From Archivesica marissinica (Eukaryota; Mollusca; Bivalvia; Venerida; Vesicomyidae): a stretch of 64,000 bases of DNA. How positions within the stretch are numbered: position 1 is the first letter of the stretch; the number at the start of each line of letters is the position of its first letter. The notes beneath the pieces are model-generated. The model saw only the letters and a list, made by a program, of their open reading frames with translations. It was not told where the DNA came from and did no database searches. The stretch spans positions 73,009,749 to 73,073,748 of the forward strand of contig CM026387.1 in the NCBI GenBank assembly GCA_014843695.1. Reading direction: 5' to 3'. Of this stretch, positions 7,741 to 63,655 are shown piece after piece. The position numbers and the translations under genes are program-made.

Positions 7741-8740
7741 NNNNNNNNNNNNNNNNNNNNNNNNNNNNNNNNNNNNNNNNNNNNNNNNNNNNNNNNNNNN
7801 NNNNNNNNNNNNNNNNNNNNNNNNNNNNNNNNNNNNNNNNNNNNNNNNNNNNNNNNNNNNNNNNNNNNNNNNNNNNNNNNNNNNNNNNNNNNNNNNNNNN
7901 NNNNNNNNNNNNNNNNNNNNNNNNNNNNNNNNNNNNNNNNNNNNNNNNNNNNNNNNNNNNNNNNNNNNNNNNNNNNNNNNNNNNNNNNNNNNNNNNNNNN
8001 NNNNNNNNNNNNNNNNNNNNNNNNNNNNNNNNNNNNNNNNNNNNNNNNNNNNNNNNNNNNNNNNNNNNNNNNNNNNNNNNNNNNNNNNNNNNNNNNNNNN
8101 NNNNNNNNNNNNNNNNNNNNNNNNNNNNNNNNNNNNNNNNNNNNNNNNNNNNNNNNNNNNNNNNNNNNNNNNNNNNNNNNNNNNNNNNNNNNNNNNNNNN
8201 NNNNNNNNNNNNNNNNNNNNNNNNNNNNNNNNNNNNNNNNNNNNNNNNNNNNNNNNNNNNNNNNNNNNNNNNNNNNNNNNNNNNNNNNNNNNNNNNNNNN
8301 NNNNNNNNNNNNNNNNNNNNNNNNNNNNNNNNNNNNNNNNNNNNNNNNNNNNNNNNNNNNNNNNNNNNNNNNNNNNNNNNNNNNNNNNNNNNNNNNNNNN
8401 NNNNNNNNNNNNNNNNNNNNNNNNNNNNNNNNNNNNNNNNNNNNNNNNNNNNNNNNNNNNNNNNNNNNNNNNNNNNNNNNNNNNNNNNNNNNNNNNNNNN
8501 NNNNNNNNNNNNNNNNNNNNNNNNNNNNNNNNNNNNNNNNNNNNNNNNNNNNNNNNNNNNNNNNNNNNNNNNNNNNNNNNNNNNNNNNNNNNNNNNNNNN
8601 NNNNNNNNNNNNNNNNNNNNNNNNNNNNNNNNNNNNNNNNNNNNNNNNNNNNNNNNNNNNNNNNNNNNNNNNNNNNNNNNNNNNNNNNNNNNNNNNNNNN
8701 NNNNNNNNNNNNNNNNNNNNNNNNNNNNNNNNNNNNNNNN
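7741..8740. other. Assembly gap (1000 N)
   Basis: Exactly 1000 undetermined bases. The round length suggests a placeholder rather than a measured gap. It interrupts the 34-bp array. Confidence 0.99.
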
Positions 8741-11400: not shown

Positions 11401-11765
11401 CAGGTGTAGATCTTTTTGGCAGTAATAATACTATTTTTAGACAAAATTACCCATTTTAATAAATGAACTGGTCCAAATGTAATGTTCTTATTAATTTATT
11501 AATCTAAGAATATCATGGACCAGTTACTTGGTGTTGAATAAGAACAACGATTACTGATTCTAAAATGCCAATTTGCCAATCAGTACACCCGGAAATGCAA
11601 AATGTTATATGAACATCACTCGGAATACGAATCAGAATCCACTAGGCTAATTACTTCTGACGTGAAGCATCACTTCCTAATCACGCGACCAGGTAATGGA
11701 CAGCATGTGAACTGGTGTTACTATTCTAGTTCAAATGATAGGTACCTAACATGATGCCACCGGCA
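11401..11765. other. Unique stretch, nothing recognised
   Basis: AT-rich single-copy-looking sequence between a SINE and the 29-bp array. No exon or RNA gene is seen. Confidence 0.5.
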
Positions 11766-14700
11766 TTCAACCGGTGTCAGGGATAGACGTATCATACAAC
11801 CAGTGTCGGGGATAGACGTATCATACAACCGGTGTCAGGGATAGACGTATCATACAACCAGTGTCAGGGATAGACGTATCATACAACCGGTGTCAGGGAT
11901 AGACATATCATACAACCAGTGTCAGTGATAGACGTATCATACAACCGGTGTCAGGGATAGACGTATCATACAACCGGTGTCAGGGATAGACGTATCATAC
12001 AACCGGTGTCAGGGATAGACGTATCATACAACCGGTGTCAGGGATAGACGTATCATACAACCAGGGATAGACGTATCATACAACCAGTGTCAGTGATAGA
12101 CGTATCATACAACCGGTGTCAGGGATAGACGTATCGTACAACCGGTGTCAGGGATAGACGTATCATACAACCGGTGTCAGGGATATACGTATCATACAAC
12201 CGGTGTCAGGGATAGATGTATCATACACCAGGTGTCAGGGATAGACGTATCATACACCCAGTGCCAGGGATAGACGTATAATACAACCAGTGTCAGGGAT
12301 AGACGTATCATACACCCGGTGTCAGGGATAGACATATCATACAACCAGTGTCAGGGATAGACGTATCATACACCCGGTGTCAGGGATAGACGTATCATAC
12401 ACCCAGTGTCAGGGATAGACGTATCATACACCCAGTGTCAGGGATAGACGTATCATACAACCAGGGATAGACGTATCATACACCCAGTGTCAGGGATAGA
12501 CGTATCATACACCCATGGATAGACGTATCATACAACCAGTGTCAGGGATAGACGTATCATACAACCAGTGTCAGGGATAGACGTATGATACACCCAGTGT
12601 CAGGGATAGATGTATCATACAACCGGTGTCAGGGATAGACGTATCATACAACCGGTGTCAGAGATAGACGTATCATACAACCGGTGTCAGGGATAGACGT
12701 ATCATAAACCGGTGTCAGAACCCGATAGACGTATCATATACCGGTGTCGGTGATAGACGTATCATACAACCAGTGTCAGGGATAGACGTATCATATAACC
12801 GGTGTCGGGGATAGACGTATCATTCAACCAGTGTCGGGGATAGACGTATCATACACCCATGGATAGACGTATCATACAACCGGTGTCGGGGATAGACGTA
12901 TCATACAACCGGTGTCAGGGATAGATGTATCATACAATCAGTGTCGGGGATAGACGTATCATTCAACCAGTGTCGGGGATAGACGTATCATACAACCGGT
13001 GTCAGGGATAGATGTATCATACAATCAGTGTCGGGGATAGACGTATCATTCAACCAGTGTCGGGGATAGACGTATCATACAACCGGTGTCGGGGATAGAC
13101 GTATCATACAACCGGTGTCAGGGATAGATGTATCATACAATCAGTGTCGGGGATAGACGTATCATACAACCGGTGTCGGGGATAGACGTATCATGCAACC
13201 AGTGATAGACGTATCATACAACCGGTGTCGGGGATAGACGTATCATACAACAGGTGTCAGGGATAGACGTATCATACAACCGGCGTCAGGGATAGACGTA
13301 GCATACAAAGGGCGTCAGGGATAGACGTAGCATACAACCGGTGTCAGGGATAGATGTATGATACAACCGGTGTCAGGGATAGACGTATCGTACAACCGGT
13401 GTCAGGGATAGACGTATCATACAACCGGTGTCAGGGATAGAGTATCATACAACCGGTGTCAGGGATAGACGTATCATACAACCGGTGTCAGGGATAGACG
13501 TATCATATAACCGGTGCCAGTGAGAGACGTATCATACAACCGGTGTCAGGGATAGACGTATCATACAACCGGTGTCAGGGATAGATGTATCATACAACCG
13601 GTGTCAGGGATAGACGTATCATACAACCGGTGTCAGGGATAGACGTATCATACAACCGGTGTCAGGGATAGACGTATCATACAACCTGTGTCGGGGATAG
13701 ACGTATCATACAACCGGTGTCAGGGATAGACGTATCATACAACCGGTGTCAGGGATAGACGTATCATATAACCAGGGATAGACGTATCATACAACCGGTG
13801 TCAGGGATAGACGTATCATACAACCGGTGTCAGGGATAGACGTATCATACAACCGGTGTCAGGGATAGACGTATCATACAACCGGTGTCGGGGATAGACG
13901 TACCATACACCCAGTGTCAGGGATAGAGACGTATCATACACCCAGTGACAGGGATAGACGTATCATACACCCAGTGTCAGGGATAGACGTATCATATAAC
14001 CGGTGTCAGGGATAGACGTATCATACACCGGTGTCAGGGATAGACGTATCATACAACCGGTGTCTGAGATTGACGTAGCATACAACCGGTGTCAGGGATA
14101 GACGTAGCATACAACCGGTGTCAGGGATAGACGTAGCATATAACCAGTGTCAGGGATAGACGTATCATATAACCGGTGTCAGTAATAGACGTTTCATACA
14201 ACCGATGTCAGGGATAGACGTATCATACAACCGGTGTCAGGGATAGACGTATCATACAATCAGTGTCGGGGATAGACGTATCATACAACCGGTGTCAGGG
14301 ATAGACGTATCATACAACCGGTGTCAGGGATAGACGTATCATACAACCGGTGTCAGGGATAGACGTATCATACAACCAGTGTCGGGGATAGACGTATCAT
14401 ACAACCGGTGTCGGGGATAGACGTATCATACAACCAGTGTCGGGGATAGACGTATCATACAACCGGTGTCAGGGATAGACGTATCATACACCCCGTGTCA
14501 GGGATAAACGTATCATACAACCGGTGTCAGGGACAGACGTATCATACACCCCGTGTCAGGGATAGACGTATCATACAACCGGTGTCAGGGAAAGACGTAT
14601 CATACAACCAGTGTCAGGGATAGACGTATCATACAACCGGTGTCAGGGAGAGACCTATCATACACCCTGTGTCAGGGATAGACGTATCATACAACCAGTG

Positions 14701-15660
14701 TCTGGGATAGACGTATCATACAACCGGTGTCAGGGAGAGACCTATCATACACCCTGTGTCAGGGATAGACGTATCATACAACCGGTGTCAGGGATAGACA
14801 TATCATGCACCCCGTGTCAGGGATAGACGTATCATACAACCGGTGTCGGGGATAGACGTATCATACAACCGGTGTCAGGGATAGACGTATCATACACCCA
14901 GTGTCAGGGATAGACGTATCATACAACCGGTGTCGGGGATAGACGTATCATACAACCGGTGTCAGTGATAGACGTATCGTACACCCGGTGTCAGGGATAG
15001 ACGTATCATACAACCGGTGTCGGGGATAGACGTATCATACAACCGGTGTCAGGGATAGACGTATCATACAACCGGTGTCAGGGATAGACGTATCATACAA
15101 CCGGTGTCAGGGATAGACGTATCATATAGCCGGTGTCAGGGATAGACTTATCATACAACCGGTGTCAGGGATAGACGTATCATACAACCGGTGTCAGGGA
15201 TAGACGTATCATACAACCAGTGTCAGGGATAGACGTATCATACAACCGGTGTCAGGGATAGACGTATCGTACAACCGGTGTCGGGGATAGACGTAGCATA
15301 TAGCCGGTGTCAGGGATAGACGTATCATACACCCGGTGTCAGGGATAGACGTATCGTACAACCGGTGTCAGGGATAGACGTATCGTACAACCGGTGTCGG
15401 GGATAGACGTAGCATATAGCCGGTGTCAGGGATAGACGTATCGTACAACCGGTGTCAGGGATAAACGTATCATATAGCCGGTGTCAGGGATAGACGTATC
15501 ATACAACCAGTGTCAGGGATAGACGTATCATACAACCGGCGTCAGGGATAGACGTATCATACAACCGGTGTCAGGGATAGACGTATCATACTACCGGTGT
15601 CGGGGATATACGTATCATACAACCAGTGTCAGGGATAGACGTATCATATAACCGGTGCCA
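11766..15660. repeat. 29-bp tandem array (GTGTCAGGGATAGACGTATC)
   Basis: About 130 direct copies of a 29-bp unit made of CAACCGGTGTCAGGGATAGA followed by CGTATCATA. Variation is concentrated at CpG positions: CCGG alternates with CCAG, and ACGTAT with ATGTAT or ACATAT. Short units lacking the GTGTC segment occur at about 12060, 12470, 12515 and 12855. Confidence 0.95.
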
Positions 15661-20924: not shown

Positions 20925-23900
20925 GCTTACAATGTGGTTATTGTACAATGCTGGCGTGTAGCCCGTGCAGTTGTTAGTGTACAATGCTGGCGTGTAGTCC
21001 GTGCAGTGGTCAATGCACCATGCTTGCGTGTAGCCCGTGCAGTTGTTAATGTCCGGAGTTCGAGCCCGGCTGGAGCCGTTACGATTGTGTCCTTAGGCAA
21101 GGCATTTAAAATTCCACGATGCCTCTTCTCTCCCTCATGGCGATGGATTCCATCAGGAATGAGGTCTCGAGAGCGATTTATATAAGTTGAAAGAACTTGT
21201 TTCGCAATCGAGCTAAAATAAATTAGTATAAACTAGTTGTTAATGTACAACGCTGGCGTGTAGCCCGTGCAGTTGTTAATATACCATGCAGGCATGTAGC
21301 CCGTGCAGTTGTTGATATACCATGCTGGCGTGTAGTCCGTGCAGTTGTTAATGTACCATGCTGGCGTGTAGTCCGTGCAGTTGTTAATATACCATGCTGG
21401 CGTGTAGTCCGTGCAGTTGTTAATGTACCATGCTGGCGTGTAATCCGTGCAGTTGTTAATGTACCATGCTGGCGTATAGTCCGTGCAGTTGTTAATGTAC
21501 AATGCTGGCGTGTAATCCGTGCAGTTGTTAATGTACCATGCTGGCGTGTAGTCCGTGCAGTTGTTAATATACCATGCTGGCGTGTAGTCCGTGCAGTTGT
21601 TAATGTACCATGCTGGCGTGTAGCCCGTGTAGTTGTTAATGTACAATGCTGGCGTGTGGCCCGTGCAGTTGTTGATATACCATGCTGGCGTGTAGCCCGT
21701 GCAGTTGTTGATATACCATGCAGGCATGTAGCCCGTGCAGTTGTTGATGTACAATGCTGGCGTGTAGCCCGTGCAGTTGTTAATGTACAATGCTGGCGTG
21801 TAGCCGTGTAGTTGTTAATATACCATGCTGGCGTGTAGCCCGTGCAGTTGTTGATATACCATGCTGGCGTGTAGTCCGTGCAGTTGTTAATATACCATGC
21901 TGGCGTGTAGCCCGTGCAGTTGTTAATGTACCATGCTGGCGTGTAGCCCGTGCAGTTGTTAATGTACCATGCTGGCGTGTAGCCGTGTAGTTGTTAATGT
22001 ACAATGCTGGCGTGTAGCCCGTGCAGTTGTTAATGTACAATGCTGGCGTGTAGCCCGTGCAGTTGTTAATGTACCATGCTGGCGTGTAGCCGTGTAGTTG
22101 TTAATGTACAATGCTGGCGTGTAGCCCGTGCAGTTGTTAATGTACAATGCAGGTGTGTAGCCCGTGCAGTTGTTAATATACCATGCAGGCATGTAGCCCG
22201 TGCAGTTGTTGATATACCATGCTGGCGTGTAGTCCGTGCAGTTGTTAATATACCATGCTGGCGTGTAGCTCGTGCAGTTGTTAATGTACCATGCTGGCGT
22301 GTAGCCGTGTAGTTGTTAATGTACAATGCTGGCGTGTAGCCCATGCAGTTGTTGATATACCATGTAGGCGTGTAGCCCGTGCAGTTGTTAATATACCATG
22401 CTGGCGTGTAGCCGTGTAGTTGTTAATGTACAATTCTGGCGTGTAGCATGTGCAGTTGTTAATGTACCATGCTGGCGTGTAGCCCGTGCAGTTCTTAATA
22501 TATCATGCTGGCGTGTAGCCCGTGCAGTTGTTAATGTACCGTGCTGGCGTGTATCCCGTGCAGATGTTAATGTACAATGCTGGCGTGTAGCCCGTGCAGT
22601 TGTTAATATACCATGCTGGCGTGTATCCCGTGCAGTTGTTAATGTACAATGCTGGCGTGTAGCCCGTGCAGTTGTTAATGTACCATGCTGGCGTGTAGCC
22701 GTGTAGTTGTTAATGTACCATGCTGGCGTGTAGCCCGTGCAGTTGTTAATATACCGTGCTGGCGTGTAGCCGTGTAGTTGTTAATGTACAATGCTGTCGT
22801 GTAGCCCGTGCAGTTGTTAATGTACCATGCTGGCGTGTAGCCGTGTAGTTGTTAATGTACCATGCTGGCGTGTAGCCCGTGCAGTTGTTAATATACCATG
22901 CAGGCATGTAGCCCGTGCAGTTGTTGATATACCATGCTGGCGTGTAGTCCGTGCAGTTGTTAATGTACCATGCTGGCGTGTAGTCCGTGCAGTTGTTAAT
23001 ATACCATGCTGGCGTGTAGTCCGTGCAGTTGTTAATGTACCATGCTGGCGTGTAGTCCGTGCAGTTGTTAATGTACCATGCTGGCGTATAGTCCGTGCAG
23101 TTGTTAATGTACAATGCTGGCGTGTAATCCGTGCAGTTGTTAATGTACCATGCTGGCGTGTAGTCCGTGCAGTTGTTAATATACCATGCTGGCGTGTAGT
23201 CCGTGCAGTTGTTAATGTACCATGCTGGCGTGTAGCCCGTGTAGTTGTTAATGTACAATGCTGGCGTGTAGCCCGTGCAGTTGTTGATATACCATGCTGG
23301 CGTGTAGCCCGTGCAGTTGTTGATATACCATGCAGGCATGTAGCCCGTGCAGTTGTTGATGTACAATGCTGGCGTGTAGCCCGTGCAGTTGTTAATGTAC
23401 AATGCTGGCGTGTAGCCGTGTAGTTGTTAATATACCATGCTGGCGTGTAGCCCGTGCAGTTGTTGATATACCATGCTGGCGTGTAGTCCGTGCAGTTGTT
23501 AATATACCATGCTGGCGTGTAGCCCGTGCAGTTGTTAATGTACCATGCTGGCGTGTAGCCCGTGCAGTTGTTAATGTACCATGCTGGCGTGTAGCCGTGT
23601 AGTTGTTAATGTACAATGCTGGCGTGTAGCCCGTGCAGTTGTTAATGTACAATGCTGGCGTGTAGCCCGTGCAGTTGTTAATGTACCATGCTGGCGTGTA
23701 GCCGTGTAGTTGTTAATGTACAATGCTGGCGTGTAGCCCGTGCAGTTGTTAATGTACAATGCAGGTGTGTAGCCCGTGCAGTTGTTAATATACCATGCAG
23801 GCATGTAGCCCGTGCAGTTGTTGATATACCATGCTGGCGTGTAGTCCGTGCAGTTGTTAATATACCATGCTGGCGTGTAGCTCGTGCAGTTGTTAATGTA

Positions 23901-26900
23901 CCATGCTGGCGTGTAGCCGTGTAGTTGTTAATGTACAATGCTGGCGTGTAGCCCATGCAGTTGTTGATATACCATGTAGGCGTGTAGCCCGTGCAGTTGT
24001 TAATATACCATGCTGGCGTGTAGCCGTGTAGTTGTTAATATACAATTCTGGCGTGTAGCATGTGCAGTTGTTAATGTACCATGCTGGCGTGTAGCCCGTG
24101 CAGTTCTTAATATATCATGCTGGCGTGTAGCCCGTGCAGTTGTTAATGTACCGTGCTGGCGTGTATCCCGTGCAGTTGTTAATGTACAATGCTGGCGTGT
24201 AGCCCGTGCAGTTGTTAATATACCATGCTGGCGTGTATCCCGTGCAGTTGTTAATGTACAATGCTGGCGTGTAGCCCGTGCAGTTGTTAATGTACCATGC
24301 TGGCGTGTAGCCGTGTAGTTGTTAATGTACCATGCTGGCGTGTAGCCCGTGCAGTTGTTAATATACCGTGATGGCGTGTAGCCGTGTAGTTGTTAATGTA
24401 CAATGCTGTCGTGTAGCCCGTGCAGTTGTTAAGTACCATGCTGGCGTGTAGCCGTGTAGTTGTTAATGTACCATGCTGGCGTGTAGCCCGTGCAGTTGTT
24501 AATATACCATGCTGGCGTGTAGCCGTGCAGTTGTTAATGTACAATGCTGGCGTGTAGCCCGTGCAGTTGTTGATGTACCATGCTGGCGTGTAGCCCATGC
24601 AGTTATTAATATACCATGCTGGCGTGTAGCCCGTGCAGTTGTTAATGTACCATGCTGGCGTGTAGCCCGTGCAGTTGTTAATATACCATGCTGGCGTGTA
24701 GCCGTGCAGTTGTTAATGTACAATGCTGGCGTGTAGTCCGTGCAGTTGTTAATGTACAATGCTGGTGTGTAGCTCGTGCAGTTGTTAATGTACCATGCTG
24801 GCGTGTAGCCCGTGCAGTTGTTAATGTACCATGCTGGCGTGTAGCCCGTGCAGTTGTTAATATACCATGCTGGCGTGTAGCCCGTGCAGTTGTTAATATA
24901 CCATGCTGGCGTGTAGCACGTGCAGTTGTAGGCGTGTAGCCCGTGCAGTTGTTAATATACCATGCTGGCGTGTAGCCGTGTAGTTGTTAATGTACAATTC
25001 TGGCGTGTAGCATGTGCAGTTGTTAATGTACCATGCTGGCGTGTAGCCCGTGCAGTTGTTAATATACCATGCTGGCGTGTAGCCCGTGCAGTTGTTAATG
25101 TACCGTGCTGGCGTGTATCCCGTGCAGTTGTTAATGTACAATGCTGGCATGTAGACCGTGCAGTTGTTAATATACCATGCTGGCGTGTATCCCGTGCAGT
25201 TGTTAATGTACAATGCTGGCGTGTAGCCCGTGCAGTTGTTAATGTACAATGCTGGCGTGTAGCCGTGTAGTTGTTAATGTACCATGCTGGCGTGTAGCCC
25301 GTGCAGTTGTTAATATACCATGCTGGCGTGTAGCCGTGTAGTTGTTAATGTACAATGCTGGCGTGTAGCCCGTGCAGTTGTTAATGTACCATGCTGGCGT
25401 GTAGCCGTGTAGTTGTTAATGTACCATGCTGGCGTGTAGCCCGTGCAGTTGTTAATATACCATGCTGGCGTGTAGCCGTGCAGTTGTTAATGTACCATGC
25501 TGGCGTGTAGCCGTGCAGTTGTTAATGTACCATGCTGGCGTGTACCCGTGCAGTTGTTAATATACCATGCTGGCGTGTAGCCCGTGCAGTTGTTAATATA
25601 CCATGCTGGCGTGTAGCCGTGTAGTTGTTAATGTACAATGCTGGCGTGTAACCCGTGTAGTTGTTAATGTACCATGCTGGCGTGTAGCCGTGTAGTTGTT
25701 AATGTACCATGCTGGCGTGTAGCCCGTGAATTTGTTAATATACCATGCTGGCGTGTAGCCCGTTCAGTTGTTAATGTACCATGCTGGCGTGTAGCCGTGC
25801 AGTTGTTAATGTACAATGCAGGCGTGTAGCCCGTGCAGTTGTTGATGTACCATGCTGGCGTGTAGCCCATGCAGTTATTAATATACCATGCTGGCGTGAA
25901 GCACGTGCAGTTGTTAATGTTCCATGCTGGGGTGTAGCCCGTGCAGTTGTTAATGTACCATGCTGGCGTGTAGCCGTGTAGTTGTTAATGTACAATGCTG
26001 GCGTGTAGCCCGTGCAGTTGTTAATGTACAATGCAGGCGTGTAGCCCGTGCATTTGTTAATATACCATGCAGGCGTGTAGCCCGTGCAGTTGTTAATATA
26101 CCATGCTGGCGTGTAGCCCGTGCAGTTGTTGATATACCACGCAGGCGTGTAGCCCGTGCAGTTGTTAATGTACAATGCTGGCGTGTAGCCCGTGCAGTTG
26201 TTGATATACCATGCTGGCGTGTAACCCGTGCAGTTGTTGATATACCATGCAGGCGTGTAGCCCGTGCAGTTGTTGATATACCATGATGGCGTGTAGCCCG
26301 TGCAGTTGTTAATATACCATGCTGGCGTGTAGCATGTGCAGTTGTTAATATCCCATGATGGCGTGTAGCCCGTGCAGTTGTTAATATACCATGCTGGCGT
26401 GTAGCCCGTACAGTTGTTAATATACCATGCTGGGGTGTAGCCCGTGCAGTTGTTAATGTACCATGCAGGCGTGTAGCATGTGCATTTGTTAATATACCAT
26501 GCTGGCATGTAGCCGTGCAGTTGTTAATATACCATGTAGGCGTGTAGCCCGTGTAGTTGTTAATATACCATGCTGGCGTGTAGCCGTGTAGTTGTTAATA
26601 TATCATGCTGGCGTGTAGCCGTGCAGTTGTTAATATACTATGCTGGCGTGTATCCGTGCAGTTGTTAATGTACAATGCTGGCGTGTAGCCCGTGCAGTTG
26701 TTAATATACCATGCTGGCGTGTAGCCCGTGCAGTTGTTAATATACCATGCTGGCGTGTAGCCGTGTAGTTATTAATATACCATGCTGGCGTGTAGCCGTG
26801 TAGTTGTTAATATACCATGCTGGCGTGTAGCCGTGTAGTTGTTTATATACCATGCTGGCGTGTAGCCGTGTAGTTGTTGATATACCATGCTGGCGTGTAG

Positions 26901-29495
26901 CCGTGCAGTTGTTAATGTACCATGCAGGCGTGTAGCATGTGCAGTTGTTAATATACCATGATGGCGTGTAGCCCGTGCAGTTGTTAATGTACAATGCTGG
27001 CGTGTATCCGTGCAGTTGTTAATGTACAATGCTGGCGTGTAGCCCATGCAGTTATTAATATACCATGCAGGCGTTTAGCCCGTGTAATTGTTAATATACC
27101 ATGCTGGCGTGTAGCCCGTGCAGTTGATGATATACCATGCAGGCGTGTAGCCCGTGCAGTTGTTAATGTACAATGCTGGCGTGTAGCCCGTGCAGTTGTT
27201 GATATACCATGCTGGCGTGTAGCCCGTGCAGTTGTTGATATACCATGCAGGCGTGTAGCCCGTGCAGTTGTTGATATACCATGCTGGCGTGTAGCCCGTG
27301 CAGTTGTTAATATACCATGCTGGCGTGTAGCCCATGCAGTTGTTAATATACCATGCTGGCGTGTAGCATGTGCAGTTGTTAATATACCATGATGGCGTGT
27401 AGCCCGTGCAGTTGTTAATATACCATGCTGGCGTGTAGCCCGTACAGTTGTTAATGTACCATACTGGGGTGTAGCCCGTGCAGTTGTTAATGTACCATGC
27501 AGGCGTGTAGCATGTGCATTTGTTAATATACCATGCTGGCGTGTAGCCGTGCAGTTGTTAATATACCATGTAGGCGTGTAGCCCGTGTAGTTGTTAATAT
27601 AACATGCTGGCGTGTAGCCGTGTAGTTGTTAATATACCATGCTGGCGTGTAGCCGTGCAGTTGTTAATATACCATGCTGGCGTGTAACCCGTGCAGTTGT
27701 TAATATACCATGCTGGAGTGTAGCCGTGTAGTTGTTAATATACCATGCTGGCGTGTAGCCCGTGCAGTTGTTAATATACCATGCTGGCGTGTAGCCAGTG
27801 CCGTTGTTAATATACCATGCTGGCGTGTAGCCCGTGCAGTTGTTAATATACCATGCTGGCGTGTAACCCGTGCAGTTGTTAATATACCATGCTGGAGTGT
27901 AGCCGTGTAGTTGTTAATATACCATGCTGGCGTGTAGCCATGTAGTTGTTAATATACCATGCTGGCGTGTAGCCGTGTAGTTGTTTATATACCATGCTGG
28001 CGTGTAGCCGTGTAGTTGTTAATATACCATGCTGGCGTGTATCCGTGCAGTTGGTAATGTACAATGCTGGCGTGTAGCCCGTGCAATTGTTAATATACCA
28101 TGCTGGCGTGTAGCCCGTGCAGTTGTTAATATACCATGCTGGCGTGTAGACCGTGCAGTTGTTAATATACCATGCTGGCGTGTAGCCCGTGCTGTTGGTA
28201 ATATATCATGCTGGCGTGTAGCCCGTGCAGTTGTTAATATACCATGCTGGCGTGTAGCCGTGTAGCTGTTAATATACCATGCTGGCGTGTAGCCGTGTAG
28301 TTGTTAATATACCATGCTGGCGTGTAGCCGTGTAGTTGTTTATATACCATGCTGGCGTGTAGCCGTGTAGTTGTTAATATACCATGCTGGCGTGTAGCCG
28401 TGCAGTTGTTAATGTACCATGCAGGCGTGTAGCATGTGCAGTTGTTAATATACCATGCTGGCGTGTAGCCCGTGCAGTTGTTAATGTACAATGCTGGCGT
28501 GTATCCGTGCAGTTGTTAATGTACAATGCTGGCGAGTAGCCCGTGCAGTTGTTAATGTACAATGTTGGCGTGTAGCCGTGCACAGTTAATGTACAATGAT
28601 GGCGTGTAGCCCGTGCAGTTGTTGATATACCATGCTGGCGTGTAGCCCGTGCAGTTGTTCAAATACCATGCTGGCATGTAGCCCGTGCAGTTGTTAATAT
28701 ACCATGCAGGCATGTAGCCCGTGCAGTTGTTGATATACCATGCTGGCGTGTAGCCCGTGCAGTTGTTAATATACCATGCTGGCGTGTAGCACGTGCAGTT
28801 GTTAATGTCCATGCTGGGGTGTAGCCCGTGCAGTTGTTAATGTACCATGCTGGCGTGTAGCCGTGTAGTTGTTAATGTACAATGCTGGCGTGTAGCCCAT
28901 GCAGTTGTTAATGTACAATGCAGGCGTGTAACCCGTGCAGTTGTTATTATACCATGCAGGCGTGTAGCCCGTGCAGTTGTTAATATACCATGCTGGCGTG
29001 TAGCCCGAGCAGTTGTTGATATACCATGCAGGCGTGTAGCCCGTGCAGTTGTTAATGTACAATGCTGGCGTGTAGCCCGTGCAGTTGTTGATATACCATG
29101 CTGGCGTGTAGCCCGTGCAGTTGTTTATATACCATGCAGGCGTGTAGCCCGTGCAGTTGTTGATATACCATGCTGGCGTGTAGCCCGTGCAGTTGTTAAT
29201 ATACCATGCTGGCGTGTAGTCCGTGCAGTTGTTAATGTACCATGCTGGCGTGTAGCCGTGTAGTTGTTAATGTACAATGCTGGCGTGTAGCCCGTGCAGT
29301 TGTTGATATACCATGTAGGCATGTAGCCCGTGCAGTTGTTAATATACCATGCTGGCGTGTAGCCGTGTAGTTGTTAATGTACAATTCTGGCGTGTAGCAT
29401 GTGCAGTTGTTAATGTACCATGCTGGCGACCAATGTAGCCCGTGCAGTTGTTAATGTACAATGCTGGCGTGTATCCGTGCAGTTGTTAATGTACA
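20925..29495. repeat. 36-bp satellite array with higher-order repeats
   Basis: About 235 direct units of GCTGGCGTGTAGCCCGTGCA followed by GTTGTTAATGTACCAT. Two monomer classes coexist: 36 bp with GCCCGTGCAG and 35 bp with GCCGTGTAG, where a base loss and a C-to-T change are linked. Segments from about 21238 repeat at +1612 bp (from about 22850) almost identically; further partial copies start near 24935 and 29319. Open frames on both strands (up to 245 codons) follow from the 12-codon unit and are not called as genes. The array ends in an assembly gap. Confidence 0.95.
21052..21236 (+). mobile_element. 5'-truncated SINE family B inserted in the 36-bp satellite
   Basis: It starts at TCCGGAGTTCGAGCCCGG and ends at AATAAATTAGTATAAACTA. 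GTTGTTAATGT occurs on both flanks, which fits a target-site duplication, although the satellite supplies the same motif anyway. Confidence 0.85.
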
Positions 29496-30495
29496 NNNNN
29501 NNNNNNNNNNNNNNNNNNNNNNNNNNNNNNNNNNNNNNNNNNNNNNNNNNNNNNNNNNNNNNNNNNNNNNNNNNNNNNNNNNNNNNNNNNNNNNNNNNNN
29601 NNNNNNNNNNNNNNNNNNNNNNNNNNNNNNNNNNNNNNNNNNNNNNNNNNNNNNNNNNNNNNNNNNNNNNNNNNNNNNNNNNNNNNNNNNNNNNNNNNNN
29701 NNNNNNNNNNNNNNNNNNNNNNNNNNNNNNNNNNNNNNNNNNNNNNNNNNNNNNNNNNNNNNNNNNNNNNNNNNNNNNNNNNNNNNNNNNNNNNNNNNNN
29801 NNNNNNNNNNNNNNNNNNNNNNNNNNNNNNNNNNNNNNNNNNNNNNNNNNNNNNNNNNNNNNNNNNNNNNNNNNNNNNNNNNNNNNNNNNNNNNNNNNNN
29901 NNNNNNNNNNNNNNNNNNNNNNNNNNNNNNNNNNNNNNNNNNNNNNNNNNNNNNNNNNNNNNNNNNNNNNNNNNNNNNNNNNNNNNNNNNNNNNNNNNNN
30001 NNNNNNNNNNNNNNNNNNNNNNNNNNNNNNNNNNNNNNNNNNNNNNNNNNNNNNNNNNNNNNNNNNNNNNNNNNNNNNNNNNNNNNNNNNNNNNNNNNNN
30101 NNNNNNNNNNNNNNNNNNNNNNNNNNNNNNNNNNNNNNNNNNNNNNNNNNNNNNNNNNNNNNNNNNNNNNNNNNNNNNNNNNNNNNNNNNNNNNNNNNNN
30201 NNNNNNNNNNNNNNNNNNNNNNNNNNNNNNNNNNNNNNNNNNNNNNNNNNNNNNNNNNNNNNNNNNNNNNNNNNNNNNNNNNNNNNNNNNNNNNNNNNNN
30301 NNNNNNNNNNNNNNNNNNNNNNNNNNNNNNNNNNNNNNNNNNNNNNNNNNNNNNNNNNNNNNNNNNNNNNNNNNNNNNNNNNNNNNNNNNNNNNNNNNNN
30401 NNNNNNNNNNNNNNNNNNNNNNNNNNNNNNNNNNNNNNNNNNNNNNNNNNNNNNNNNNNNNNNNNNNNNNNNNNNNNNNNNNNNNNNNNNNNNNN
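29496..30495. other. Assembly gap (1000 N)
   Basis: Exactly 1000 undetermined bases. The left side is 36-bp satellite and the right side is an unrelated 20-21-bp array, so the true junction between the two is unseen. Confidence 0.99.
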
Positions 30496-41380: not shown

Positions 41381-41508
41381 ACCACAACTTGTCAATGCAA
41401 ATCAGCAGTATCAACAAATTTGAATTAAATGTGTCAAATTGGAAAATTCAGTGAACACTATGCTATCATGACTTTCAGCAAACTGTAATCATAGTGGACA
41501 GACAACAT

Positions 41509-41880
41509 TGAGCATTCTAAACAACATCCAGTACTTACCTAAACTTATCACTAGAGTTAGTAGCTCTCATTGAGCATTCTAAACAACATCCAGTACTTAC
41601 ATAAACTTATCTATAGAGTTAGTAGCTCTCATTGAGCATTCTAAACAACGTCCAGTACTTACATAAACTTATCTATAGAGTTAGTAGCTCTCATTGAGCA
41701 TTCTAAACAACGTCCAGTACTTACATAAACTTATCTATAGAGTTAGTAGCTCTCATTGAGCATTCTAAAGAACGTCCAGTACTTACATAAACTTATCTAT
41801 AGAGTTAGTAGCTCTCATTGAGCATTCTAAACAACATCCAGTACTTACCTAAACTTATCTATAGAGTTAGTAGCTCTCAT
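41509..41880 (-). repeat. 62-bp array of exon-10 3' end plus splice donor, 6 extra copies
   Basis: Six perfect-length 62-bp units precede, on the plus strand, the seventh copy, which is the genuine exon border (41881-41942). Read on the minus strand each unit holds about 30 exon bases (GAGCTACTAACTCTATAGAT, AAGTTTAG or AAGTTTAT), then GTAAGTACTGGA and 20 further intron bases. Units 1 and 6 keep AG|GTAAGT; units 2-5 read AT|GTAAGT, losing the final exon G. All lie inside the intron just downstream of the true donor. Confidence 0.95.
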
Positions 41881-41910
41881 GGAGCATTCTAAACAACATC
41901 CAGTACTTAC

Positions 41911-42007
41911 CTAAACTTATCAATAGAGTTAGCAGCTCTCTTCATCTTTCTCGTCACCTCGGTATCCGTGGCAACCTCTCTCATAAACATGGGTAGTCTC
42001 TGACGCA
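41911..42007 (-). CDS. GOLGA5: GOLGA5 exon 10 of 12 in window
   Basis: A 97-nt exon with acceptor GTATATATTTAG and donor TTTAG|GTAAGT. The first two bases (TG) finish a Val codon from exon 9; the last two (AG) are finished by exon 11. It encodes RQRLPMFMREVATDTEVTRK and then KRAANSIDKF, the linker before the anchor, comparable to the vertebrate RLRNVPVLF...KAASSIDQF segment. Its 3' 30 bases seed the adjacent 62-bp array. Confidence 0.92.
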
Positions 42008-46552: not shown

Positions 46553-47640
46553 ACAGTCAGTGTATAGGGGTATATAGTCAGTGTATAGGGGTATATAGTC
46601 AGTGTATAGTGGTATGTAGTCAGTGTATAGGGGTATGTGGTCAGTGTATAGGGGTATGTAGTCAGTGTATAGTGGTATGTAGTCAGTGTATAGGGGTATG
46701 TGGTCAGTGTATAGGGGTATATAGTCAGTGTATAGTGGTATATAGTCAGTGTATAGGGGTATGTAGTCAGTGTATAGGGGTATGTAGTCAGTGTATAGGG
46801 GTATGTAGTCAGTGTATAGTGGTATGTAGTCAGTGTATAGGGGTATGTGGTCAGTGTATAGGGGTATGTAGTCAGTGTATAGTGGTATGTAGTCAGTGTA
46901 TAGGGGTATGTGGTCAGTGTATAGGGGTTATAGTCAGTGTATAGGGTATATAGTCAGTGTATAGGGGTATATAGTCAGTGTATAGGGTATATAGTCAGTG
47001 TATATTGGTATGTAGTCAGTGTATAGGGTATGTAGTCAGTGTATAGGGGTATATAGTCAGTGTAAAGGGGTATATAGTCAGTGTATAGGGGTATATAGTC
47101 AGTGTATATTGGTATGTAGTCAGGTATAGGGGTATATAGTCATGTATATGGTATGTAGTCAGTGTATAGGGGTATATAGTCAGTGTATAGGGGTATATAG
47201 TCAGTGTATAGGGGTATATAGTCAGTGTATAGGGGTATATAGTCAGTGTATAGGGGTATATAGTCAGTGTATAGGGGTATATAGTCAGTGTATAGGGGTA
47301 TATAGTCAGTGTATAGAGGTATATAGTCAGTGTATAGGGGTATATAGTCAGTGTATAGGGGTATATAGTCAGTGTATAGAGGTATATAGTCAGTGTATAG
47401 GGGTATATAGTCAGTGTATAGAGGTATGTAGTCAGTGTATAGAGGTATATAGTCAGTGTATAGAGGTATGTAGTCAGTGTATAGAGGTATGTAGTCAGTG
47501 TATATAGGTATGTAGTCAGTGTATAGTGGTATGTAGTCAGTGTATAGAGGTATGTAGTCAGTGTATAGAGGTATGTAGTCAGTGTATAGAGGTATGTAGT
47601 CGGTGCATAGAGGTATGTAGTCAATGTACAGAGATTATCA
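46553..47640. repeat. 21-bp tandem array (AGTCAGTGTATAGGGGTATA)
   Basis: About 51 copies of a 21-bp unit. On the minus strand each unit contains CACTGAC, a strong branch-point consensus. The array lies immediately upstream of the GOLGA5 exon 7 acceptor in the transcript. Variants are GTGGT, GAGGT and GTGTATATTGGT. Confidence 0.93.
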
Positions 47641-50792: not shown

Positions 50793-51339
50793 ACAACATG
50801 CCTATTATGTCACAGGACGCTCCCGAACACTCTCTTAAACTGATAATCAGTCGCTCTTTAGATTATAACAGATTACATTATAATACAGAACCTCATGACC
50901 ATTAAATACACCATTAAATACACAGTATGACCATTAAATACACCATTAAATACACAGTATGACCATTAAATACACAGTATGACCATTAAATACTCATTAC
51001 ATCACTCTCCCGAACCCTAGTATAGACTGGCAATCAGTCGCTCTTTAGACAATAAAGCAATACAGCACAGACCAATACAGATTTGCTAAAATGCTATTGA
51101 TAAGTTCAGTTTACAGACAGAGCTATGAAAGTTTATGTATTTGTTACACACTTCGAGTTATTTCAATATAAGGTCATCAATTATCAAGTTGGAATAAACT
51201 GATATTTTGTTTAAAACGAATGTTTTCGTTTATAACACGGGAAACGACTGAGACTGAGGCCATAATTTTGTGATACAAAAAGTAAGTCTTATAGGGGAGT
51301 AAGTACGGTATATTATGGGGGGTTGAGTTTGCTTGTCAA
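50793..51339. other. Intron stretch with short degenerate repeats
   Basis: TATGACCATTAAATACACAG recurs about four times at 50895-50990, and TAGACTGGCAATCAGTCGCT at 51020 echoes exon 5 (TAGACTGGCAATCAGTCGAT). It is probably a partial, decayed duplication of that exon end. Confidence 0.5.
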
Positions 51340-52658: not shown

Positions 52659-52674
52659 CTGCATGATAAATATC

Positions 52675-52893
52675 AAAGTCATCAATTCGCTAATTAATTA
52701 TCAAAGTCTTCAATTCGCTAATTAATTATCAAAGTCTTCAATTCGCTAATTAATTATCAGTCTTCAATTCACTAATTAATTATCAAAGTCTTCAATTCAC
52801 TAATTAATTATCAAAGTCTTCAATTCGCTAATTAATTATCAAAGTCTTCAATTCGCTAATTAATTATCAAAGTCTTCAATTCGCTAATTAATT
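52675..52893. repeat. 28-bp tandem array, about 8 copies
   Basis: Units of ATCAAAGTCTTCAATTCGCT followed by AATTAATT. The array begins about 17 bases upstream of the exon 4 acceptor in transcript sense. Confidence 0.93.
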
Positions 52894-58316: not shown

Positions 58317-58440
58317 CCTAGACATTTTGCTACCCTCTTGTTCCCTCTTCAAGGAGGCTTCAACCTCGGTCAACTTGTGCCGGAGAGAGTCTAGAGCATG
58401 GCTGTGGATTCCACTCGAATCTGTGTGGTCTCGCAAGATT
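58317..58440 (-). CDS. GOLGA5: GOLGA5 exon 2 of 12 in window
   Basis: A 124-nt exon with acceptor ATCGTTTTAG and donor TCTAGG|GTAAGA. Its first base completes an Arg codon (AG|A) from exon 1. It encodes ILRDHTDSSGIHSHALDSLR and KLTEVEASLKREQEGSK, aligning with the vertebrate IMQDQSEGNSLQNQAL...LKREQE region. Confidence 0.94.
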
Positions 58441-60557: not shown

Positions 60558-63022
60558 TAATACTTGTATAATACCTTTATCTTTCATTCTCTAAACTATC
60601 CACTGATTATACTTGTATAATACCTTTGTCTTTCATCTTATAACCTATCCACTGATTATACTTGTATAATACCTTTGTCTTTCATTCTCTAAACTATCCA
60701 CTGATTATACTTGTATAATACCTTTGTCTTTCATCTTATAACCTATCCACTGATTATACTTGTATAATACCTTTGTCTTTCATCCTCTAAACTATCCACT
60801 GATTATACTTGTATAATACCTTTGTCTTTCATTCTCTAAACTATCCACTGATTATACTTGTATAATACCTTTGTCTTTCATTCTCTAAACTATCCACTGA
60901 TTATACTTGTATAATACCTTTGTCTTTCATTCTCTAACCTATCCACTGATTATACTTGTATAATACCTTTGTCTTTCATCCTATAAACTATCCACTGATT
61001 ATACTTGTATAATACCTTTGTCTTTCATCCTATAACCTATCCACTGATTATACTTGTATAATACCTTTGTCTTTCATCCTATAACCTATCCACTGATTAT
61101 ACTTGTATAATACCTTTGTCTTTCATTCTCTAACCTATCCACTGATTATACTTGTATAATACCTTTGTCTTTCATTCTCTAAACTATCCACTGATTATAC
61201 TTGTATAATACCTTTGTCTTTCATTCTCTAAACTATCCACTGATTATACTTGTATAATACCTTTGTCTTTCATCTTATAACCTATCCACTGATTATACTT
61301 GTATAATACCTTTGTCTTTCATCCTCTAAACTATCCACTGATTATACTTGTATAATACCTTTGTCTTTCATTCTCTAAACTATCCACTGATTATACTTGT
61401 ATAATACCTTTGTCTTTCATTCTCTAAACTATCCACTGATTATACTTGTATAATACCTTTGTCTTTCATCTTATAACCTATCCACTGATTATACTTGTAT
61501 AATACCTTTGTCTTTCATCCTCTAAACTATCCACTGATTATACTTGTATAATACCTTTGTCTTTCATTCTCTAAACTATCCACTGATTATACTTGTATAA
61601 TACCTTTGTCTTTCATTCTCTAAACTATCCACTGATTATACTTGTATAATACCTTTGTCTTTCATCTTATAACCTATCCACTGATTATACTTGTATAATA
61701 CCTTTGTCTTTCATCCTCTAAACTATCCACTGATTATACTTGTATAATACCTTTGTCTTTCATTCTCTAAACTATCCACTGATTATACTTGTATAATACC
61801 TTTGTCTTTCATTCTCTAAACTATCCACTGATTATACTTGTATAATACCTTTGTCTTTCATTCTCTAAACTATCCACTGATTATACTTGTATAATACCTT
61901 TGTCTTTCATTCTCTAAACTATCCACTGATTATACTTGTATAATACCTTTGTCTTTCATCTTATAACCTATCCACTGATTATACTTGTATAATACCTTTG
62001 TCTTTCATCCTCTAAACTATCCACTGATTATACTTGTATAATACCTTTGTCTTTCATTCTCTAAACTATCCACTGATTATACTTGTATAATACCTTTGTC
62101 TTTCATTCTCTAAACTATCCACTGATTATACTTGTATAATACCTTTGTCTTTCATCTTATAACCTATCCACTGATTATACTTGTATAATACCTTTGTCTT
62201 TCATTCTCTAACCTATCCACTGATTATACTTGTATAATACCTTTGTCTTTCATCTTATAACCTATCCACTGATTATACTTGTATAATACCTTTGTCTTTC
62301 ATCCTATAACCTATCCACTGATTATACTTGTATAATACCTTTGTCTTTCATCCTATAACCTATCCACTGATTATACTTGTATAATACCTTTGTCTTTCAT
62401 TCTCTAACCTATCCACTGATTATACTTGTATAATACCTTTGTCTTTCATTCTCTAAACTATCCACTGATTATACTTGTATAATACCTTTGTCTTTCATCC
62501 TATAACCTATCCACTGATTATACTTGTATAATACCTTTGTCTTTCATCCTATAACCTATCCACTGATTATACTTGTATAATACCTTTGTCTTTCATTCTC
62601 TAACCTATCCACTGATTATACTTGTATAATACCTTTGTCTTTCATTCTCTAAACTATCCACTGATTATACTTGTATAATACCTTTGTCTTTCATCCTATA
62701 ACCTATCCACTGATTATACTTGTATAATACCTTTGTCTTTCATCCTATAACCTATCCACTGATTATACTTGTATAATACCTTTGTCTTTCATTCCCTAAA
62801 CTATCCACTGATTATACTTGTATAATACCTTTGTCTTTCATTCCCTAAACTATCCACTGATTATACTTGTATAATACCTTTGTCTTTCATTCCCTAAACT
62901 ATCCACTGATTATACTTGTATAATACCTTTGTCTTTCATTCCCTAAACTATCCACTGATTATACTTGTATAATACCTTTGTCTTTCATTCTCTAAACTAT
63001 CCACTGATTATACTTGTATAAT
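60558..63022 (-). repeat. 49-bp array of exon-1 3' end plus splice donor, about 50 copies
   Basis: On the minus strand each unit reads AATCAGTGGATAGTTTAGAG, then AATGAAAGACAAAG, then GTATTATACAAGTAT. The first 34 bases equal the last 34 bases of the GOLGA5 exon at 63436-63655; the remaining 15 are the start of its intron, including the GT donor. Variants TAGAGGATG and TATAAGATG alternate in block patterns, pointing to higher-order duplication. Every unit lies in the intron downstream of the genuine donor. Confidence 0.96.
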
Positions 63023-63183
63023 AAATTTAAACTTTATTTATTTTACAACGATTGCGAAGCAAGTTCTAACAACTTATATTAATCACTCTCGTTGGCACGG
63101 ATGAAAGCGTAAATGTGGTCATTTGTATAGGAGGAAACCGGAGTACCCGGAGAAAACCCACCTGTCCGATCTTGCGACCACCG
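63023..63183 (-). mobile_element. SINE family C, 5'-truncated, in the 49-bp array (copy 1)
   Basis: Plus strand runs from TTTAAACTTTATTTATTTTA to CACCTGTCCGATCTTGCGAC. The head is missing, and the element is flanked on both sides by array sequence. Confidence 0.88.
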
Positions 63184-63252
63184 TATATATATACTTGTAT
63201 AATACCTTTGTCTTTCATTCTCTAAACTATCCACTGATTATACTTGTATAAT

Positions 63253-63413
63253 AAATTTAAACTTTATTTATTTTACAACGATTGCGAAGCAAGTTCTAAC
63301 AACTTATATTAATCACTCTCGTTGGCACGGATGAAAGCGTAAATGTGGTCATTTGTATAGGAGGAAACCGGAGTACCCGGAGAAAACCCACCTGTCCGAT
63401 CTTGCGACCACCG
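63253..63413 (-). mobile_element. SINE family C, 5'-truncated, in the 49-bp array (copy 2)
   Basis: Identical to copy 1, produced by segmental duplication rather than by a second insertion, since the flanks are duplicated too. Confidence 0.88.
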
Positions 63414-63435
63414 TATATATATACTTGTATAATAC

Positions 63436-63655
63436 CTTTGTCTTTCATTCTCTAAACTATCCACTGATTTTTGTCTGTTTTCCAGCTCTCGGTCAGCTTC
63501 TTCTAGTCTGATTCTTAGAACCCCAAGCTGGGTATCCTTGGCCCCTATCGTCTCCATTAAGTCCTGCTCCCTATTATGTAGCTCCCTCACTACATGCTCA
63601 GACTTCGACACTGACCGTGATTGCTCTTTCAATTTACCTCGCAATTTTGCCAAAT
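63436..63655 (-). CDS. GOLGA5: GOLGA5 exon 1 of 12 in window (internal exon of the gene)
   Basis: A 220-nt exon with acceptor CTTATCAATTTCAG and donor CAAAG|GTATTA. It encodes LAKLRGKLKEQSRSVSKSEH, then ETIGAKDTQLGVLRIRLEEA and ENRQKSVDSLENERQ. The AKDxQLxVLxxRLxEAD block matches golgin-84. It begins with two bases of a split codon, so at least one upstream exon lies outside the window. Its last 34 bases are the source of the 49-bp array. Confidence 0.94.

Follow-up and report, generated by a model that had tools for sequence, protein, structure and literature searches.

The window analysed here comprises 64,000 nucleotides of the vesicomyid clam Archivesica marissinica (assembly GCA_014843695.1, 1.54 Gb in 2808 contigs; contig CM026387.1, positions 73,009,749 to 73,073,748) and carries a GOLGA5 gene on the minus strand. 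Fourteen exons were located with the Mercenaria protein, from ~77152 (the window being extended by loci L009-L011) down to ~39500. Ten joined exons were read through without a stop, yielding 415 residues, and the 448-residue product of these ten and the last exon matched Pfam Golgin_A5 (E 3.1e-92); from this product, which also served as the query for homology searches and alignment, exon 11 is missing, as are the first residues encoded by exon 12. The top relatives among the best 120 of 1095 matches were the GOLGA5 proteins of Mercenaria (78% identity), Ruditapes (77%), and Mactra (76%). The assignment to GOLGA5 made in the initial annotation is therefore upheld.

Exon 3 (220 nt, 63436..63655, minus strand) was placed by its joined frame with the following exons, by protein alignment, and by tblastn with the Mercenaria protein. 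Its splice partner, exon 4 (58317..58440, minus strand), begins behind the acceptor CGAAACAATTATCGTTTTAG, and the exon 3 frame carries on into it without a break. Against 15 other GOLGA5 proteins, selected from the listed matches and ranging from clams to a mammal, the alignment shows no insertion at the exon 3/4 join or at the exon 12/13 join (15/15). Because these joins are gap-free, the ends of both exons are coding sequence of ancestral origin, and the copies in the introns described below would be untranslated; that the segment repeated by the array belongs to a real coding exon, as had been assumed initially, is borne out by the alignment and the reading frame alike.

At the end of exon 3, a 49-bp unit is repeated 52 times on the minus strand, from 63469 down to 60560, one unit being exonic and 51 intronic. 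Each unit combines 34 bp of the exon 3 end with 15 bp of intron 3, including the donor. The first unit consists of the last 34 bp of the exon (63469-63436) followed by the real 5' splice site and the first 15 intronic bases (GTATTATACAAGTAT, 63421..63435, minus strand), and the exon part, the border, and the intron part of the repeat are thus contiguous with the real border. Fifty of the intronic units, each an exon end with its donor, form a pure run at 60560..63009 (minus strand). For 60560-63023, Tandem Repeats Finder (TRF) reported 49 bp × 50.3 (score 4417, 96% matches); for 62960-63469 it gave 230 bp × 2.2 (100% matches). The initial annotation had counted about 50 intronic copies of the exon end in an array contiguous with the exon border. 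The number stands, with 51 units found, but exact copies make up only 19 of the 51; contiguity holds in that unit 1 is the exon end itself, but two 230-bp units precede the pure 49-bp run. A chance resemblance between unit and exon was ruled out by an exact 50-bp copy with an E value of 3e-23 against exon 3 within the 94-kb stretch. When a 301-bp piece of the array was searched against the assembly (best-scoring candidates only), 12 matches were obtained, all at the GOLGA5 locus and none from a second haplotype. No junction microhomology was visible by eye at either unit end.

The two 230-bp units are identical to one another (63010..63469, minus strand; sequence identity and TRF), and each is made up of one 49-bp unit, a 168-bp dispersed element, and a 13-bp target-site duplication. 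The element copies lie at 63253..63420 and 63023-63190 (minus strand) and are flanked on both sides by the 13-bp duplication ATTATACAAGTAT. Fifteen further matches to the element occur elsewhere in the 94-kb stretch, five of them longer than 110 bp at 83-94% identity. Judged by its size and target-site duplication, the element is probably SINE-like. A tRNA gene as its source was considered and rejected, since ARAGORN (bacterial setting) reported zero tRNA genes in the window; the element may nevertheless have a decayed tRNA-derived head.

The 52 units fall into eight types, in the order AAAFFFFBBADBBADBBCDCAAECAAAAECAAECAAECAADBBGDAAECACH. Type A, the exon type, is identical over all 49 bp and accounts for 20/52 units with the real exon counted. 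The remaining 32 units differ from it by 1 to 4 changes at six variable columns (14, 18, 19, 20, 21, and 30), five of which lie within 8 of the 49 positions (columns 14-21). Read in the exon frame, 18/52 units contain a stop (types B, C, G, and H) and 14/52 an amino-acid change (types D, E, and F), which shows that the intronic copies have, to judge from their letters, been free of coding constraint. The array ends are exon-like: the first three units are of type A and the last is type A plus one change, with the variants in between. The recurrence of AAEC and ADBB blocks points to growth by blocks of four units, and these blocks, together with the exon-like ends, are what would be expected of internal turnover, a pattern read here from one allele in one assembly.

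A second, smaller array of the same construction is present in the gene. The last 26 bp of exon 12 (41911..42007, minus strand) open a 62 bp × 7 array at 41506..41940 (minus strand; TRF and direct readout), in which one exonic and six intronic units repeat the end of exon 12 together with the GTAAGT donor; the exon ends at 41911 as GATAAGTTTAG|GTAAGT. All six intronic units read GCTACT where exon 12 reads GCTGCT, and in 4/6 the G at position -1 of the donor has been lost. Upstream of exon 7 (50505-50338), two decayed copies of the exon start were recovered by blastn and tblastn at 50797..51055 (minus strand), a probable sign of an older exon-start duplication. Arrays also approach other borders: a 28-bp array (52667-52893) stops 9 bp before the exon 6 acceptor, a 21-bp array (46555-47628) stops 26 bp before the exon 9 acceptor, and an array starts 18 bp past the exon 8 donor. 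Exons 6 and 9 accordingly have their predicted polypyrimidine tract or branch region inside an array or bordering on one.

We consider it very probable that the GOLGA5 array is a mirage, the name given in amphioxus to minisatellite-like duplications of intron/exon boundaries (PMC3087553), here seeded by a duplication of the exon-intron border, and that it is a functionless passenger which destabilises the exon end. The origin by duplication across the junction, put forward in the initial annotation, is supported by the composition of the unit (34 + 15 bp). Under this reading, a 49-bp stretch of exon 3 and intron 3 would have been duplicated and then multiplied, partly in four-unit blocks, by unequal exchange or slippage within the intron. 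The border duplication would have persisted since splicing continued to use the first donor; the first unit would remain the real exon end and 5' splice site, and the other 51 would be spliced out with the intron. A short dispersed element would later have entered the first intronic unit, and this unit would then have doubled together with the element.

In order to judge whether such overlaps require more than chance, the density of arrays has to be taken into account. TRF arrays occupy 53% of the window, Ns excluded, and 39-41% of the GOLGA5 gene. Tandem-repeat units in the window are mostly of 18-62 bp, and the large arrays include 36 bp × 230 at 21235-29494 and 29 bp × 135 at 11764-15657; two gaps of 1000 N (7741-8740 and 29496-30495) each come straight after a large array or one base later. 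The 14 exons were placed at random with ≤ 40 bp in arrays (600 simulations; the ends of exons 1 and 2 may be off by ~1 base). Two borders are overlapped by an array against 0.89 expected (P 0.23), and with a stricter set of arrays one against 0.67 (P 0.48); the overlap at exon 3 is not part of the stricter set, since TRF reports it as 230 bp × 2.2. With 11 exons (exons 1, 2, and 11 absent), one overlap was seen against 0.59 expected (P 0.46). The gene and the window are so rich in arrays that chance seeding suffices for the overlaps observed.

Proximity gives another result. Six of 28 borders lie ≤ 30 bp from an array, where 1.58 would be expected (P 0.005); this count includes the stop-codon end of exon 14, which is no splice site. 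Within ≤ 60 bp there are 7 against 2.29 expected, a value reached in 0/600 simulations. With stricter arrays, the counts are 4 against 1.18 (≤ 30 bp, P 0.028) and 5 against 1.64 (≤ 60 bp, P 0.018), and with 11 exons they are 4 against 1.02 (P 0.016) and 5 against 1.42 (P 0.011), respectively. Pure chance seeding does not predict the excess within 30 bp, which counts against a mirage arisen by chance. Minisatellites might instead start or stop at exon borders more often than elsewhere, whether through transcription-linked breakage, factors bound at splice sites, or exons acting as barriers to spreading arrays. This would also accord with the two exon-end arrays and the one decayed exon-start duplication of GOLGA5, but the overlaps themselves are at chance level and GOLGA5 was picked on account of its array. 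Arrays may be drawn towards exon borders, to judge from this one gene chosen for its array.

The same question was put to kinase genes of this genome. Fifty of the 131 matches to the survey family PF00069 were taken as loci: 30 were the best-scoring matches, a good number of which are long single-exon or pseudogene-like, and another 20 were selected among the remaining 101 for being intact and having open frames of ≤ 235 aa. Arrays make up 25% of the non-core bases in these 50 loci against 0.04% of the core bases. Seven loci with stops in the core were dropped from the edge tests, leaving 43 cores. A strict test of these cores and ten GOLGA5 exons found exon-edge copies at 3/106 edges, all three in GOLGA5 (exons 3, 7, and 12) and 0/86 at the kinase cores, L058 having been missed by the 8-bp rule. 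A looser test flagged seven kinase edges (L021, L028, L029, L054, L057, L058, and L060) and no edge of GOLGA5 exons 1, 2, 11, and 14. Among the seven, the exon end is copied as an array only in L058, a kinase that we take to be CHEK2-like, where a 37-bp × 3.3 array (~2702-2834, gene orientation) repeats the exon end and the donor GTAGGC, with only the last few exon-end bases exact in the copies. No rate is claimed for the kinases because many of the core edges are not true splice borders.

The strict result and the single case found by the looser look speak against a preference for borders, and the arrays that extend to acceptors in L057 (16-bp unit) and L029 speak for it. The L029 array (40 bp × 37) stops ~13 bp short of the kinase core; the array unit contains CTACTAAG, which presumably resembles the branch-point consensus. 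On balance, we regard a preference of minisatellites for exon borders as rather unlikely. This preference and the mirage reading could both hold, and their confidences need not add up to one.

The donors of the array could alternatively be at work as decoys, whether by binding U1 or through competition with the real donor, thereby slowing or regulating splicing and sending part of the transcripts into nonsense-mediated decay. The splice signal is indeed present in every copy, the donor 9-mer AAG|GTATTA being unchanged in 52/52 units; a comparison of true and decoy donors, as proposed in the initial annotation, thus finds them of equal strength. The real exon 3 donor is moreover the third weakest of the ten GOLGA5 donors measured by U1 pairing (-5.7 kcal/mol), and a human minisatellite with multiple donors has been published (G1P3/IFI6; Nucleic Acids Res 1995; 23:1854). 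The unchanged 9-mer and the clustering of variable columns could hint at constraint or could just reflect block amplification. However, the first and second decoys lie 230 and 460 nt past the real donor, and read-through meets a stop at 63311, upstream of the first of them; any decoy use would therefore truncate the protein. The amphioxus mirages are reported, in the part of PMC3087553 available to us, without disturbance of splicing, and the sequence analysed bears no sign of decoy use.

A 28-nt pseudo-exon in each unit, also suggested initially, would read Ser-Gly-stop (two unit types translated), the deciding first seven bases being common to 52/52 units, as the units were located by that motif. 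Functional decoys and pseudo-exons thus find no support, and working decoys appear very improbable. Splicing in the animal would presumably proceed at the first donor, and the two element copies, by spacing the decoys from it, may help exon definition. The array is most likely neutral and without function.

It is still less probable that the array is a mis-assembled short repeat: both 1000-N gaps in the window come after large arrays, but the exon 3 array itself has no gap, its flanks are unique, an element with a target-site duplication lies inside it, and its eight unit types stand in ordered blocks, although the number of copies may not be exact. The capture of a pre-existing intronic minisatellite as the exon end, with which the identity of the exon end to 19/51 intronic units would agree, can hardly be credited, being contradicted by an exon 3 end that aligns gap-free with 15/15 other GOLGA5 proteins and so indicates that the exon came first and its copies later.

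It seems to us a rather unlikely extension that minisatellites repeatedly arise or halt at exon borders in this minisatellite-rich clam genome, with the exon ends of many genes lying in unstable arrays. If this were so, mirages would be general in array-rich invertebrate genomes, having evolved independently in lancelets and clams, and would steadily supply variation in splice sites and intron length; at GOLGA5, any of the stop-bearing units (18/52) exchanged into the exon position would give a null allele. The GOLGA5 array offers a natural test of how the spliceosome settles on a single donor out of 52 that are identical, and of how a coding exon end is preserved by selection where a third of the units carry stops.

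The initial annotation knew of no named class for exon-end minisatellites, a view corrected by the amphioxus literature. Mirages, so named after the Adh3 case, were described in amphioxus globin genes, where they occur at both exon ends, with regular splicing by RT-PCR and with length instability (PMC3087553, as far as accessible), and the PGBD5 and troponin C mirages of amphioxus were added later (PMC3902484, likewise). As in the amphioxus cases (Adh3, BflGb6, BflGb9, troponin C, and PGBD5), the GOLGA5 unit joins an exon part, an intron part, and a splice signal. The clam arrays hold 52 and 7 units, as compared with 2 to 7 in those amphioxus cases for which counts are given; they further differ in their bivalve host, in occurring twice in one gene, and, at exon 3, in a dispersed element that was inserted and co-amplified. 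Splicing and length instability have been demonstrated for amphioxus mirages, whereas the GOLGA5 case is known from the sequence of one assembly. No mollusc mirage was found in a literature search of open-access papers, which did not extend to bivalve genome papers.

Other systems share single features, as judged from the accessible parts of their sources. The human G1P3/IFI6 minisatellite (Nucleic Acids Res 1995; 23:1854) is likewise a tandem repeat at an exon end that presents many donors, but its downstream donors are used in mRNA, whereas the GOLGA5 unit of 49 bp is not a multiple of three and decoy use would truncate the protein. Human genes within segmental duplications can carry variable tandem repeats at their exon-intron boundaries (PMC2812944), which also have units of minisatellite size and are able to alter gene structure; they belong to recent primate paralogs and comprise ~4 units of 30 bp on average, whereas the conserved GOLGA5 gene has 52 × 49 bp. 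Intron gain by tandem duplication (PMC2891723, PMC4974935) similarly copies a splice motif, but in GOLGA5 no new intron has arisen and an existing one has merely been lengthened; this process was rejected for the array, the exon 4 acceptor, ~5 kb off, bearing by eye no likeness to the 49-bp unit. The GOLGA5 arrays are thus a large molluscan example of mirages already described, present twice in one gene, and they extend the amphioxus phenomenon to a mollusc in an extreme form.
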